DNA of 64,000 bases from Pyrococcus kukulkanii (lineage in GTDB: Archaea; Methanobacteriota_B; Thermococci; Thermococcales; Thermococcaceae): the NCBI RefSeq assembly GCF_041647995.1, contig NZ_JARRIB010000001.1:310001-374000 (forward strand), written 5' to 3'. A program made the translations under genes and the position numbers. A model generated the notes under the pieces. It searched no databases and had not been told where the DNA came from. It saw nothing but the letters and a program-made list of their open reading frames with translations. Within the stretch, counting starts at the first letter, position 1; every line of letters begins with the position of its first letter. Shown here in pieces: positions 31,331 through 36,890 of this stretch.

Positions 31331-31344
31331 TCAAATGATCAAAC

Positions 31345-31355
31345 CTTTAATATTT
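31345..31355 (+). promoter_or_regulatory. TATA element of the two-gene cassette
   Basis: CTTTAATATTT lies about 30 nt before the ATG at 31383, so a nearly leaderless transcript is expected; this argues for that start and against an ATG at 31335 upstream of the promoter. Confidence 0.55.
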
Positions 31356-31382
31356 CCTGGAGATACTAATCCTGGGGTAAAC

Positions 31383-32576
31383 ATGGGTTACTATGAAGAG
31401 ATTCCTGGGTTCGAGTACTGGAACGTTGAGGCTTGGAAGAAATACATTAGAGATTACATAGGGCCGATATACTCCACTACAAAAACACTTCTCGAGTTGA
31501 AGGATTACCTCGAGAGGTACGTTGGAAAGTCCCTTAAGGCCGTAAAGGAAGACGACGAGAGAGTTCTAAAGTTTTTCGTTGGAGGGATAAATGAAAGCGG
31601 AAATTACACCGAAAGGAGCTTGGCCAAGCTGATAAGGCTGATGTATGGGATATACGTTGAGCCCACAGAGTTCATTAGTGCCATTGAGGCCGTTGGAGAG
31701 GAGGGACTTAGTGATATTCTTGTAAAGAAAGAGAAGGAGGATAATGTCAGCTTCCTAAAGATGATAAAAGCACTCAATAAGCTTAGTGAGAATGCCTTAA
31801 AGAAGGCAAGGGTGATCTCAGGTACAGGAACATCAATTGAAGACATACTTGACTATCCAAATAAACTCCTTGATGTTCTTAAAGATTTATACAAAGCGGT
31901 AACATACTTTAACGCCCAATATAATCCATACACATTTTTCAGACTTAGCACGGCAAGTCTCCCTTGGAGATATATGATAAGAGCGTACCAAAAGCTTACA
32001 AAAGATGTACTAGAGTTCCTGGGCATAGAACCAATTTTTATTCCTGAGGTAGAGAACGAGGAGCTAAGAGAAGAGTACACTATATGGGGTCATATAGTGG
32101 GTGAGAATTCACTTGGAAGGTATATCTACAACATTCAACTTGCTATTTGGGCATTTATGACGCCATCATTAATAGGAAGCAAAAACTCTACACTTAATGT
32201 ATTTAACTATGTCACAAACCCAGAAGATTTCGTAAAATCATACTATGGATTTGCAGGTGTAAAAAGTAAGTCAAGAACTGATGTCTACGTTGAAATCGGA
32301 AGTGAAAAATTTTATCCTCTTGATACATACAGATTCGAAATTAATGGAACACTTATCCAGAAATGGCCTAACGAAACAGCAATAAGGCTTGTAGATGGTT
32401 ATTCTAAAGCAATTATTGCGAGGAGTGAGCATGAAAAACCACCAATCTCCCTCTTCAAGATCATAGACATTGTAAGCGAGTTTCTGTTCAAAGGTATCTC
32501 AGTACTCCTTCCAGAAGGAGAGAACACGATAAGGTATATTGGAGATGTCCCATATAAAGCCCAATGGTGGTTCTAA
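31383..32576 (+). CDS. Unrecognised protein, first gene of a two-gene cassette
   Basis: A 397-residue soluble protein starting MGYYEEIPGFEYWNVEAWKK. It is mostly helical in the first 200 residues and has aromatic-rich segments later (IRYIGDVPYKAQWWF at the C-terminus). I do not recognise a domain. The first 450 bases use codons like the neighbours, whereas from about 31840 the DNA becomes clearly AT-rich and stays so across the junction into the next gene. Its stop is immediately followed by the start of the 573-aa protein, so the two proteins are probably made together and may interact. Confidence 0.8.
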   Translation: MGYYEEIPGFEYWNVEAWKKYIRDYIGPIYSTTKTLLELKDYLERYVGKSLKAVKEDDERVLKFFVGGINESGNYTERSLAKLIRLMYGIYVEPTEFISAIEAVGEEGLSDILVKKEKEDNVSFLKMIKALNKLSENALKKARVISGTGTSIEDILDYPNKLLDVLKDLYKAVTYFNAQYNPYTFFRLSTASLPWRYMIRAYQKLTKDVLEFLGIEPIFIPEVENEELREEYTIWGHIVGENSLGRYIYNIQLAIWAFMTPSLIGSKNSTLNVFNYVTNPEDFVKSYYGFAGVKSKSRTDVYVEIGSEKFYPLDTYRFEINGTLIQKWPNETAIRLVDGYSKAIIARSEHEKPPISLFKIIDIVSEFLFKGISVLLPEGENTIRYIGDVPYKAQWWF

Positions 32577-34298
32577 ATGGAAGAAAGAAATAAGTCAACC
32601 CAGGAATATCGTGAATACGAGGAGGAAAAACGAGAAAGAGAACGTAGAAAACAGAAACCTGAAAAGAAAGTTATCCCGCGTCAATCTCCACTTCCAAAAT
32701 CCATAAGTTCATCTCAAGAATCCCAAGAAGTAAACGTTAAAATTTCACAAGTAAGATTCAATGTCCCTCATCTCAGCTTTTTACATGGAACTGTAGAGGG
32801 GAAGTTCCCCCATTACTTTTCCCAAAAATCTTTCAGTATATCAGCTTTACACTTTCACTCTCCTAAATTTTCTTTCAAGGAAACTCAAATTGACTCAAAT
32901 CTCCATGTAACCCAAGGACTTAAAGAGCCTCACGTTCTACAAGTAGCTTTTAGAAAGCCAACTATTGAATTCCAATGGAGAGTTCTCGACTCATCAATAC
33001 TAAAAAAGAAAAAGAAGCAGAACGAATTCGTTATTCCTGTATTGAAGTTCTCAACAAAACCCGTGTTTGATTTTAAAGATAACACTCTTGATGCTAGTAT
33101 CACTAAAAGACTCTCTCCCAAGTATTTTAAACCCGAAATAATGAAGAAAGCTCCAGACACAAGAAAAACTTTTGTATCCAAGAGTAGAACGAAAGAAAGC
33201 AAGGGAATAGAACTACCGAGAACCCCCATCAAGCCATTGGAATTTTTATTCGGTGGGGGAGCAGGAGCCCTAAAAGATGCTCCAGAACCTCTGGTAATTT
33301 TATTCAAGGATTCCCAGGATGACAGTTACATTCACTTATTCGAGGAGATACTCATAAGAATTTACCGGGAAAAGAAAGGAGGAATTCCAGATATAAAGAA
33401 GCTAACGCTTAAGGACGAGTGGAGCAAAAGAGAAGTTGAAAGATGGCTCGATGAAGGCAAAATTTTCGTAGTTGACGTTGATTCAGAGGGAGAAATAAAC
33501 AGGGATCTCCTCGCAGATAGGTTGTGGGCAATATTCCACGGGAGGAAGGGGATAGTGATATTCTACACCAAAGACGAGAAAGTATCCGAGAAATACCAGA
33601 GGCTTCTTGAAGAAGTCAACTGGCAACTTCAAAGGGTTGCAAAGATCGTCGAGATAACCCCAAGGAAACTATCTTTTAAGGAGAAAAAGATATTAACAAA
33701 GCTTATCCTGGGGAACATCATTGTAAAGGACGTTGCCCCAGGAATTGATCAAGACACTATCTTCAACGAAACGTCAAAGCTCTACGAAGACAAGCTAGAG
33801 AAACTTGTCAACGAGTACTACCACACCCTGGGAATAATCCGAGAGGGAGAAAACGAGAGCAGGGAGCACTTAAGAATGAAAGCATTCATAATTTCAACGT
33901 TAATCAAGGAGCTCGTAAAGAGGGGAATAAAAGACATTGGTGAGATCTTGGAGAGGATAAGAACAGAAGAGCCATTTGGAACAATAGTTCCGGACGTAAT
34001 ATTCGAAGGCGAATTTTACGAGGCAGAAACCCTGTTTGAGGAAGGCTTCCACAAGATACACAAGACAATACAGAAATATTCTGGAACTTCAGGAAAAGTA
34101 AAGATAGTTGTAGAGCCAATAACTGCCTTTATCCACGCAGATGACTTCCTAAAGCTCCTCAAAATACTCAAGAAGAGGTACCCAGGAATAGATGTTAGCT
34201 TTTACACAATGGACCTAAGGAACATGAAACTCCTTGACCTGAGAAAATACCTCAAAGAACTTTCAGAATTCCTATCATCTAATGCCAATGTCCCATAG
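32577..34298 (+). CDS. Unrecognised 573-aa protein, paralogue of the protein at 109
   Basis: Three parts are visible. Residues 1-50 are extremely charged (EEEKRERERRKQKPEKK). Residues 55-185 contain about four imperfect repeats of about 32 residues with the pattern hydrophobic-x-F-x-x-P...F...-LD-x-S-I (for example LKFSTKPVFDFKDNTLDASI). From about 236 the protein matches the 407-aa protein at 109-1332 in order: EPLVILFKDSQDD, KIFVVDVDSEG, ENESREHLRMKAF, then TIVPDVIF (D473), EAETL (E482/E484) and VVEPITAFIH. The latter is a possible PD-(D/E)XK-like core. N-terminal coding is AT-rich, C-terminal is not. It ends 24 nt inside the convergent DUF4411 gene. Confidence 0.8.
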   Translation: MEERNKSTQEYREYEEEKRERERRKQKPEKKVIPRQSPLPKSISSSQESQEVNVKISQVRFNVPHLSFLHGTVEGKFPHYFSQKSFSISALHFHSPKFSFKETQIDSNLHVTQGLKEPHVLQVAFRKPTIEFQWRVLDSSILKKKKKQNEFVIPVLKFSTKPVFDFKDNTLDASITKRLSPKYFKPEIMKKAPDTRKTFVSKSRTKESKGIELPRTPIKPLEFLFGGGAGALKDAPEPLVILFKDSQDDSYIHLFEEILIRIYREKKGGIPDIKKLTLKDEWSKREVERWLDEGKIFVVDVDSEGEINRDLLADRLWAIFHGRKGIVIFYTKDEKVSEKYQRLLEEVNWQLQRVAKIVEITPRKLSFKEKKILTKLILGNIIVKDVAPGIDQDTIFNETSKLYEDKLEKLVNEYYHTLGIIREGENESREHLRMKAFIISTLIKELVKRGIKDIGEILERIRTEEPFGTIVPDVIFEGEFYEAETLFEEGFHKIHKTIQKYSGTSGKVKIVVEPITAFIHADDFLKLLKILKKRYPGIDVSFYTMDLRNMKLLDLRKYLKELSEFLSSNANVP

Positions 34299-34772
34299 GA
34301 ACTCTAAAACATCAAAAGAGTTAATACCAAACTGGGACGCTATATAAGGAATCCTGTTCCTTTTCCTCTTGTTTTCTTGGGTCACTATCATTACATCATC
34401 ATTTATCAATGCAACCTCTCTATAATGGAGGGCAAGTGTAACTACCCAAGGATCGGCCCAAGCTCCAGCCTTATTGGCTTCCCTTTCCCAGTAGTCCTCA
34501 TCATAAACAGCCTTCACTCTCATAAGGATGTTCACTTGTCCTTGGTCAGGATGAATGAACATGAACCTCCTCTTTTGCACCCATTCAAGTAGCTCATCGC
34601 TTCTGCTTTTAAGTTCTCTATAAACCTCATAAGGGGCAACAATTTTACCAGCATTTACGAGCACTTCAAGTTTGTCCCAAATTGGCCTGAAGAATTTTCT
34701 ATCCATTGGATACCATCGGGCCATATCTATTAGTGCACTTGTGTCGATGACGTATATAGTCAAAGCTCTCAC
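34275..34772 (-). CDS. DUF4411 PIN-like toxin
   Basis: A 165-residue protein with a PIN-like N-terminus (YVIDTSALIDMARWYP, first Asp in DTSALID), an internal ADPWVVTLAL segment and a NDDVMIVTQE strand, typical of DUF4411. The family is regularly encoded next to an HTH-metallopeptidase of the ImmA/IrrE type, as here, with a 4-nt overlap. RNase toxin activity is inferred from the fold family. It converges on the 573-aa gene. Confidence 0.8.
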   Translation of the reverse strand: MRALTIYVIDTSALIDMARWYPMDRKFFRPIWDKLEVLVNAGKIVAPYEVYRELKSRSDELLEWVQKRRFMFIHPDQGQVNILMRVKAVYDEDYWEREANKAGAWADPWVVTLALHYREVALINDDVMIVTQENKRKRNRIPYIASQFGINSFDVLEFLWDIGIR

Positions 34773-35824
34773 CCTAACAACTTTTCAGCATACTTAGTTT
34801 TAATATTAAGAATGTCAGCTGCTTCGTAGAACGTTATCTCTCCACTGCGATATGCTTTGCTTATTTCCTCCAAAATCAAATTACCAATCCTATTCTGATA
34901 TCTCTCTTCCCAGCTTATCTTACCCCCCTCACCCTTCTTCGGTTTATATTTTTCCTTAAATTCGACGTACCTTTCCCTTGTTATGTAACCCACCTCGAGC
35001 AACTTTATCATGATTACCTGCATGCTAACTCCATACTTCCTTGCAACGATCTGAACATCTTTCTCTCTTGGATTCCTCCCGATGTCCTTGAGGAAGTATC
35101 TAGTGGGCACTAAAAATTCCGCAGCGAACTTATCACAGTATCTCTCCACGTCGCTAATTTCTGAATCAATATCTATAGAACAAATCCCCTCCTCCCCTCT
35201 TATCAGGTGACAAAGTTCATGGAATAGCGAGAACACTTTGACTGAATACATATCTGACTCATTGAGAACGATAACAGAAAACGATCCCTTTATGCTGAAC
35301 GCCCTAACATCCTCGTCAAGGGGATACTGAATAACCCCAATACTAAATTTTGACTCTATTAAGTTCCTATAGAAGTTAAAAGCTTCCTTTGGACTCCTAA
35401 AGGAGGGCTCAGCCAGCCCTAACATCTCTCTAAGTTTATTGGCTAGAGCTTCAGGAGGAAGATCCTGGAGCGTGGGAATTTTACTTCTTAATCCAGTGAG
35501 GTTTGGAATGGACTCTGAAATATATCTCGCCCATCTAATTGCAACTGCCGTTTTCTGCCCAAGCTTCTTTTCCCTATTTATTCTGTAATCGGGCAATTTC
35601 CGAGTTTCGATGATCTCGGTTGTGAAGAAGGCAACAAGAGGAACCTTGTATATATCCGCTAGTCTCTCGAGTTGTGTAATTGTGAAGCTATCCCTCCCAG
35701 ATTCAACAGCCAGTATTTTCTCAGGCTTTACACGGAGCTTACGAGCTAAATCTTCAATGCTTAAACCAGCCCCCTCTCTGAGCTTCTTTAAAGTACTGGG
35801 CAGGACACCAATTTTCTCAACCAT
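34769..35824 (-). CDS. HTH plus ImmA/IrrE (M78) metallopeptidase, antitoxin-type
   Basis: A 351-residue protein with an N-terminal Xre-type helix-turn-helix (LKKLREGAGLSIEDLARKLR, about 10-60) and a zinc-protease domain with the HELCHLI motif near residue 202-208. A glutamate in the following helices (ERYCDKFAAEFLVP) should be the third metal ligand. Such fusions regulate the adjacent PIN-like gene and may remove a repressor by proteolysis. The start follows GAGAGGAACC. The toxin gene overlaps its end by 4 nt, so the pair acts as a module. Confidence 0.87.
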   Translation of the reverse strand: MVEKIGVLPSTLKKLREGAGLSIEDLARKLRVKPEKILAVESGRDSFTITQLERLADIYKVPLVAFFTTEIIETRKLPDYRINREKKLGQKTAVAIRWARYISESIPNLTGLRSKIPTLQDLPPEALANKLREMLGLAEPSFRSPKEAFNFYRNLIESKFSIGVIQYPLDEDVRAFSIKGSFSVIVLNESDMYSVKVFSLFHELCHLIRGEEGICSIDIDSEISDVERYCDKFAAEFLVPTRYFLKDIGRNPREKDVQIVARKYGVSMQVIMIKLLEVGYITRERYVEFKEKYKPKKGEGGKISWEERYQNRIGNLILEEISKAYRSGEITFYEAADILNIKTKYAEKLLG

Positions 35825-35860
35825 GGTTCCTCTCAATTTATCAACTCCTGATTATCCCTT

Positions 35861-36890
35861 TTAAATCTCTCCTTCAAGAACCCTCCTAATGGCCAATAGC
35901 TCTAGCCTTCCCTGGGGCCTTACCACTCCTTCAAGAGGATCAACAAACAAGATATAGGCCCTAACCGCCTGCTCTAATGCTTTAGTAATCCTGCCGTCAA
36001 AGGATATCTCATCAGCCTCAATGAAATTCTTCAAGAGGTTTATCAAGCTCTTTTTTCCATAAACAAAGCCATAGATCTGCCCAGCCCTTAAGTCGAGTAT
36101 TCTCCCACACTATTCCTTAAGGTCATCTCCATGTTTGATTGCCTCAATTAGAAGGCTTGCCCCCAAAGTATTCCAGTGCAAGCTTTGCTTTCCTCTTTTC
36201 TAATCCGTGCGAAGTTAGAAATTCCAAGGTAGTGCTTTCATCAAAGTCATCGACAAGGAGATAATCAGATCTCCCCTGAAGCATGGCTTCGTTGTAAACT
36301 TCCTCGATAAATAGGCTGTCCGAGGTTACTACGAAAACGTGGGCTAAGTGGGCCTCTTTAGTTATGTGAACAAAGAAGTTAAAGAGTTCATAAATTACGG
36401 GTCCATTAACATTCAAATCCCTAATGACCTGAAGTTCGTTAAGTATTAAAATGGGCGCCTTCCCTTTATCCTTAACCTCCCCCAGCAACTTTATGATGTA
36501 GGCAAAGGCATTCTTTGGCTTCTTCCCCCTCAATACGCACGTTAGGACACTTTCGGGGATTGGAATGCCTAAAATTTCCTTGCCCGCAGATAGAACTAGG
36601 GACAAAGCTTCCTTAAGGCTTTGAACAGGGGATTCAACGTCTATTGAGAACAAGACGTCAAGAAAGTCCTCATAATCTGTGACCGGTGTGGCTCTGAGAT
36701 TAACATAAAACGCTACATAATTATCCGGAAGCCTGCTTATGAATTCTCGCATGAGGGCAGTTTTACCGCTGTTTATTGGCCCATAAACGAACGTTACTAT
36801 ATTTGGATCTCCTCTCACAATCCTGAGCAACTCATCAATTTCCTTTTCCCCGTTAAAGAACATGCCACTTCCCCAAACAATTACTCCCAA
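35861..36890 (-). pseudogene. Archaeal ATPase gene, frameshifted and stopped
   Basis: The first 248 codons (36890-36144) encode an archaeal-type AAA ATPase with Walker A FVYGPINSGKTALM and Walker B ILILNELQVI, up to LEYFGGKPSN. A 1-nt frameshift at that point moves the frame to LLIEAIKHGDDLKE, followed by a TAG, after which CGRILDLRAGQIYG and then INLLKNFIEADEISFDGRIT continue to a natural stop at 35861. Repairing the two lesions gives a normal-length protein of about 340 residues. The 5' part may still produce the ATPase domain. Confidence 0.75.

Follow-up and report, generated by a model that had tools for sequence, protein, structure and literature searches.

Gene B of Pyrococcus kukulkanii, which encodes a 573-aa protein, and gene A, which lies directly upstream of it, were found to form a two-gene cassette; that the unit is this pair and not a single gene is well supported, as is the mobile, mosaic and patchy occurrence of the cassette across archaea. 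The reading towards which we lean is that A-B is a mobile accessory conflict module of archaea, likely antiviral or anti-plasmid, with an atypical nuclease as its effector. The window, i.e. the whole stretch of DNA that was analysed, is 64,000 nucleotides long and corresponds to positions 310001-374000 of contig C1 in a genome of 2.05 Mb (G000). What is described below on pairing, invariant residues, fold prediction, mobility, exchange of a block and linkage to a protease was all obtained by computation. The genes concerned are as follows.

1-1332, + strand: last 443 residues of a B paralogue (737 aa), the remainder of which lies upstream of the window together with its own gene A (L003 5748-9333)
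31335-32576, + strand: gene A, the upstream partner, 413 aa
32577-34298, + strand: gene B, 573 aa, whose product is the subject of the preliminary description, identified by its ORF, its homology and its pairing

In the preliminary description, B was assigned to an undescribed protein family with two members in the window, the second one at the window start. The ORF of B was confirmed at 32577-34298 on the + strand, and its homology with the window-start ORF was borne out by BLASTP, with 32% identity over 139 residues (E = 4e-9) and a score of 60.5 bits, compared with no more than 32.3 bits in 500 shuffles. All of the sequence blocks quoted as shared were present and kept their order, falling at B residues 237-249, 295-301, 428-437, 471-476, 482-486, and 511-520. 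The second member had been taken as a whole protein at 109-1332; in fact only the open C-terminal part of an ORF of 737 aa (L003 7120-9333) falls there, an ORF whose start lies 882 bases before the window and which also has a long Pro-rich N-terminus. The two proteins are thus homologous as described, but another intact copy, the third, was found on contig C6 and a remnant on contig C2, which brings the members in this genome to more than two. Remnants of B at G000:C2 409436-409741 and G005:C1 1563006-1563377 lie at equivalent sites in two genomes from this genus; both adjoin the same ATPase and helicase-like genes and are decayed copies.

The family did prove to be undescribed, B having no match above noise in Pfam, NCBIfam, PADLOC, or PHROGs. 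Within the scope of the scans made of these four collections, neither A nor a shortened form of A, termed C, had a significant match. In PADLOC-DB v2, neither A nor B corresponded to a described component, and the best E values, 0.02 for B and 0.001 for a homologue, were not meaningful. Searches of PDB sequences with profiles of B, of the nuclease domain and of A returned nothing usable, the best matches being designed TIM barrels and hemocyanin. No description of an A-B cassette was found in the literature, that on "Zac" included.

The stop codon of gene A abuts the ATG of B, with A ending one base before the B start. The true start of A is probably M17 at 31383, where the homologues begin. 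All three B genes that are intact in this genome are accompanied by a gene A of 399-462 aa, which ends at or within the start of B. The preliminary description, which proposed a comparison of gene neighbourhoods across Thermococcales, had missed this obligatory partner, the occurrence beyond that group, the linked proteasome homologue and the block exchange. Of 53 loci with upstream sequence, 47 had A or C immediately ahead of B and in the same orientation, overlaps of 3-30 bases with B being frequent; this pairing spans Thermococcaceae, haloarchaea, Archaeoglobaceae, Thermoproteota, and Lokiarchaeota. The 6 unpaired loci comprised B remnants (L066 and L134), a fusion (L085) and loci with no recognised partner (L084, L139, and L142). 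In profile-profile comparison with hhalign, C matched A residues of approximately 176-297 (E = 2e-6). An AlphaFold model of A was mostly helical and of low confidence (pLDDT 53).

Comparison with the syntenic site in genome G007 divided the cassette into the following parts.

31335-31664, + strand: conserved N-terminal part of gene A, approximately 110 residues, with DNA 93-98% identical to the syntenic G007 copy
31665-33200 (boundaries approximate), + strand: exchanged block, consisting of the C-terminal approximately 300 residues of A and the N-terminal approximately 200 residues of B

At the G007 site, the DNA of the flanking genes, of the first approximately 110 residues of A and of most of the B core was mostly 92-99% identical to that of the window. 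The block in between was approximately 50-60% identical, and its edges were sharp. The C-terminus of A and the N-terminus of B were swapped as one block between the syntenic copies. Joint replacement of the touching halves of A and B is what would be expected if both halves work as one unit.

Protein B was divided into three parts, and several codons in the last of them are of interest.

32577-33227, + strand: B residues 1-217, a charged start followed by Pro/hydrophobic repeats of approximately 33 residues (IPxxxLxxPxxxFxxxxLD...), from self-alignment
33228-33839, + strand: B residues 218-421, a five-stranded alpha/beta domain, from the AlphaFold model and Foldseek
33840-34295, + strand: B residues 422-573, a PD-(D/E)XK-like domain, from AlphaFold and alignment
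33867 and 33879, + strand: codons of H431 and K435
33966, + strand: codon of E464
33993, + strand: codon of D473
34020 and 34026, + strand: codons of E482 and E484
34053, + strand: codon of K493

Self-alignment of the repeats of B gave a best offset of 34, with 32-33 in two homologues and 66 in another, and a score of 69 as against 49 or less in shuffles; in all four proteins the best alignment exceeded every shuffle. The two copies had been likened to modular effectors with different N-termini; the N-termini were found to be fast-diverging versions of one kind, namely arrays of repeats of approximately 33 residues. Unrelated N-terminal modules were ruled out by the common repeat arrays and by the clipping of one N-terminus at the window edge. 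Since the window clips the 737-aa ORF, the perceived contrast was partly an edge effect.

Residues 218-573 of B were modelled with AlphaFold from 15 diverse sequences, giving a mean pLDDT of 91.4 and a pTM of 0.90. The top Foldseek matches of the middle domain were AAA+ ATPases, in particular degenerate domains resembling clamp-loader delta, and they ranked above the nuclease matches; they were weak, with TM-scores of about 0.3 or less. The aligned family has no Walker A motif in this domain, i.e. no GxxxxGK[ST] after the first strand, and in this it differs from AAA+ proteins, to which it is only possibly related. The invariant charged positions of B all fall within the C-terminal part, none of them in the middle domain.

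For the C-terminal part, a possible PD-(D/E)XK core with D...ExE spacing had been proposed. Structure prediction gave, with high confidence, a helix at 429-448, strands at 461-463, 474-476, and 479-483, a second helix at 490-499 and a further strand at 507-511. This is the helix-strand-strand-strand-helix-strand (alpha-beta-beta-beta-alpha-beta) core of the PD-(D/E)XK superfamily, found at B residues 429-511 as an order of elements only. In the model, D473 lies at strand 2 and E482 and E484 lie in strand 3, and an H-x3-K motif is carried on the first helix. Conservation was counted in up to 41 B sequences with less than 80% identity to one another. D473, E482, and E484 were invariant in 40 of 40 nonredundant sequences and K435 in 41 of 41; E464 and T485 were 97% conserved, H431 95%, and K493 85% (34/40). 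D473 and E482 thereby supply the acidic pair of strands 2 and 3 in all 40. The canonical lysine is indeed missing, as had been noticed earlier, the position two after the strand-3 acid being E484 in 40/40. The predicted order of elements and the invariant D473, E482, and E484 agree with the PD-(D/E)XK reading; from known members the domain differs in having E484 in place of the strand-3 lysine.

Profile searches gave no confident match of B to a characterised family; no nuclease family reached significance in them, and no nuclease sequence in PDB was matched. The nearest weak matches within the superfamily were the sub-threshold ones to HSDR_N_2, the CoiA nuclease domain (CoiA_nuc), PDDEXK_4, and BsuBI/PstI (BsuBI_PstI), together with one viral-model match annotated as MmcB-like. 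K435 of the preceding helix or K493 could stand in for the canonical lysine. Judged by the model and by the conservation, B residues 422-573 probably belong to PD-(D/E)XK. Whether B would be an active nuclease is nearly an even question, to which we give slightly less than equal weight.

The domain may instead be a pseudo-nuclease that has no cleavage activity and only binds a ligand or nucleic acid, in which case A-B would be a regulatory or scaffold complex and the enzyme would be the protease or AAA+ ATPase that is linked to it at some loci. The missing lysine fits this explanation, and the preceding alpha/beta domain, lacking Walker A, looks catalytically dead as well. However, six polar residues of the putative site are 95-100% conserved across distant archaea, which is unusual for a dead enzyme, and most loci have neither protease nor AAA+ ATPase linked to them. 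We regard this explanation as rather unlikely, though the most serious of the alternatives.

B was detected in 21 of 115 genomes of the window's phylum group, confined to 2 of 12 genera, and in 29 of 394 genomes of the phylum to which the Natrialba genome belongs. A pattern scan of 84,980 species showed B in archaea only, the taxa (as given in record titles) being Thaumarchaeota, Lokiarchaeota, Natrialba, Archaeoglobaceae, Thermoproteota, Desulfurococcales, and Pyrodictium. B was not found in viral or phage collections, and in the plasmid collection it was found on one Halorussus plasmid only, with the B core at the end of a protein of 1403 aa. Between loci L070 and L071, the module is 98-100% identical over approximately 2.6 kb, while the flanks are 72-85% identical or unalignable; an identity so far above that of the neighbouring orthologues indicates transfer between species. 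Broken copies were observed at L020, L024, L027, L071, and L134.

A proteasome-beta-like gene encoding approximately 260-280 aa adjoins the cassettes at L004, L029, L030, L069, L070, L071, L080, and L081. It matched PF00227 (4e-17 for L080 and 4e-7 for the consensus) as well as archaeal proteasome beta subunits in PDB (7e-7), and the catalytic residues T1, D17, and K33 are invariant, as in members of the proteasome family. The gene occurred in 6 of the 115 genomes of the window's phylum group, within approximately 3.7 kb of B in 6/6, and in 2 of the 394 genomes of the other phylum, one adjoining B and the other having B on another contig. Linkage of the protease to one branch of the cassettes is well supported. 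The majority of cassettes have no linked protease, and the protease is therefore not essential. By its described features, being archaeal-only here and proteasome-beta-like with T1/D17/K33 kept, the protease probably corresponds to ACC, a cluster described by Fuchs et al. 2021 (PMC8665760). ACC was reported from Euryarchaeota, Crenarchaeota, and other archaea, and the survey paper makes no mention of operons or gene neighbourhoods (PMC8665760); the linkage to A-B provides a genomic context for this archaeal proteasome homologue. An unnamed gene of approximately 304-311 aa, c8, is situated between the proteasome homologue and A at L029 (6040-6954), L030, L069, L070, and L071. As a relative of A, c8 was rejected (hhalign probability 0.1%).

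Several neighbours of the cassette resemble defence genes. At L125, a C-B pair lies inside a BREX operon, between the BrxC and PglX/PglZ genes, which recalls BREX and the archaeal defence islands; most cassettes, however, are outside BREX loci, and A, B, and C are not among the components in PADLOC-DB. An IetA/TRIP13-like AAA+ ATPase is encoded directly downstream of B at L137 and L142, and type IIG restriction and TPR defence genes adjoin the cassette at L130. Other neighbours resembled AbiE (L004), Hma/DUF499 (L063), Hhe (L078), GajA (L076), and TmtA (L085). These neighbours were picked by eye and without a control set, so that enrichment in defence genes is suggested only. Among the cassette genes, no conserved methyltransferase of a restriction-modification system was found. 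A role of the cassette in defence appears fairly likely.

A role unrelated to viruses, in housekeeping or stress through quality control of protein or DNA, would accord with the linkage to a proteasome homologue and a Cdc48-type ATPase and with the lack of viral or phage copies. Presence in only 21/115 and 29/394 genomes, mobility, frequent breakage, and a location sometimes inside or beside defence operons are hardly what such a role would predict, and we consider it improbable.

Next to B in the window, the following pair is found on the opposite strand.

34275-35836, - strand: DUF4411 gene (PIN-like) and, overlapping it, an HTH-ImmA gene (RmrA-like), together resembling a toxin-antitoxin pair

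The RmrA-like gene is 471 bases from B, and the pair is missing from the otherwise syntenic G007 site. Adjoining the third A-B copy of the genome (L004 4986-7217) are an AbiEi/AbiEii pair and a recombinase-like gene.

With toxin-antitoxin genes (DUF4411/ImmA and AbiE) close by, A-B could itself be such a pair, in which B would be a toxic nuclease, A the antitoxin and the protease the agent degrading A. The order of the genes, with A first and overlapping B, the joint exchange of their touching halves, and copies that are patchy, mobile and multiple per genome would all suit a toxin and its antitoxin. Yet A and B are far larger than typical proteins of this kind, and A lacks both DNA-binding and antitoxin domains. 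Moreover, A at L024 is in three pieces while the core of B is open, which an active toxin should not tolerate, assembly errors being possible there. Such a pair is therefore an improbable explanation.

Returning to the conflict module, A together with the repeat array of B may be a rapidly evolving unit for sensing or interaction. The effector would then be the C-terminal domain of B, which stays constant: a PD-(D/E)XK nuclease of atypical kind, having a D...ExE site and a lysine that might come from the helix next to it (K435) or from the one after (K493). The complex would be regulated by the dedicated proteasome homologue in one branch and by a Cdc48/TRIP13-type AAA+ ATPase in another, perhaps through removal or processing of A or of the N-terminus of B. 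A more far-reaching version, in which A and the repeat arm of B are a joint diversifying recogniser that controls an atypical nuclease in a new archaeal immune system, switched through proteolysis by the proteasome homologue or AAA+ unfoldase, is speculative and in its entirety unlikely.

With these results, two hypothetical genes of Thermococcaceae become a defined, archaea-wide cassette with residues that can be tested. If the cassette is a defence system, current defence libraries miss it, and its two proteins swap their recognition parts jointly, which would make it a clean case for how archaea diversify immunity.

Two further loci were observed. On the Halorussus pelagicus plasmid NZ_CP035121.1 (L085 8902-13113), the 1403-aa protein of which the B core is the C-terminus is encoded third, after weakly ZacA-like and PLD/ZacB-like genes, and an integrase adjoins; this is perhaps a separate defence operon with B as its effector domain. 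In the window, an ATPase-like ORF at 36144-36890 on the - strand is approximately 60% identical to a gene near an A-B locus of Archaeoglobaceae (L079 13325-14026) and is possibly another gene common to these islands.
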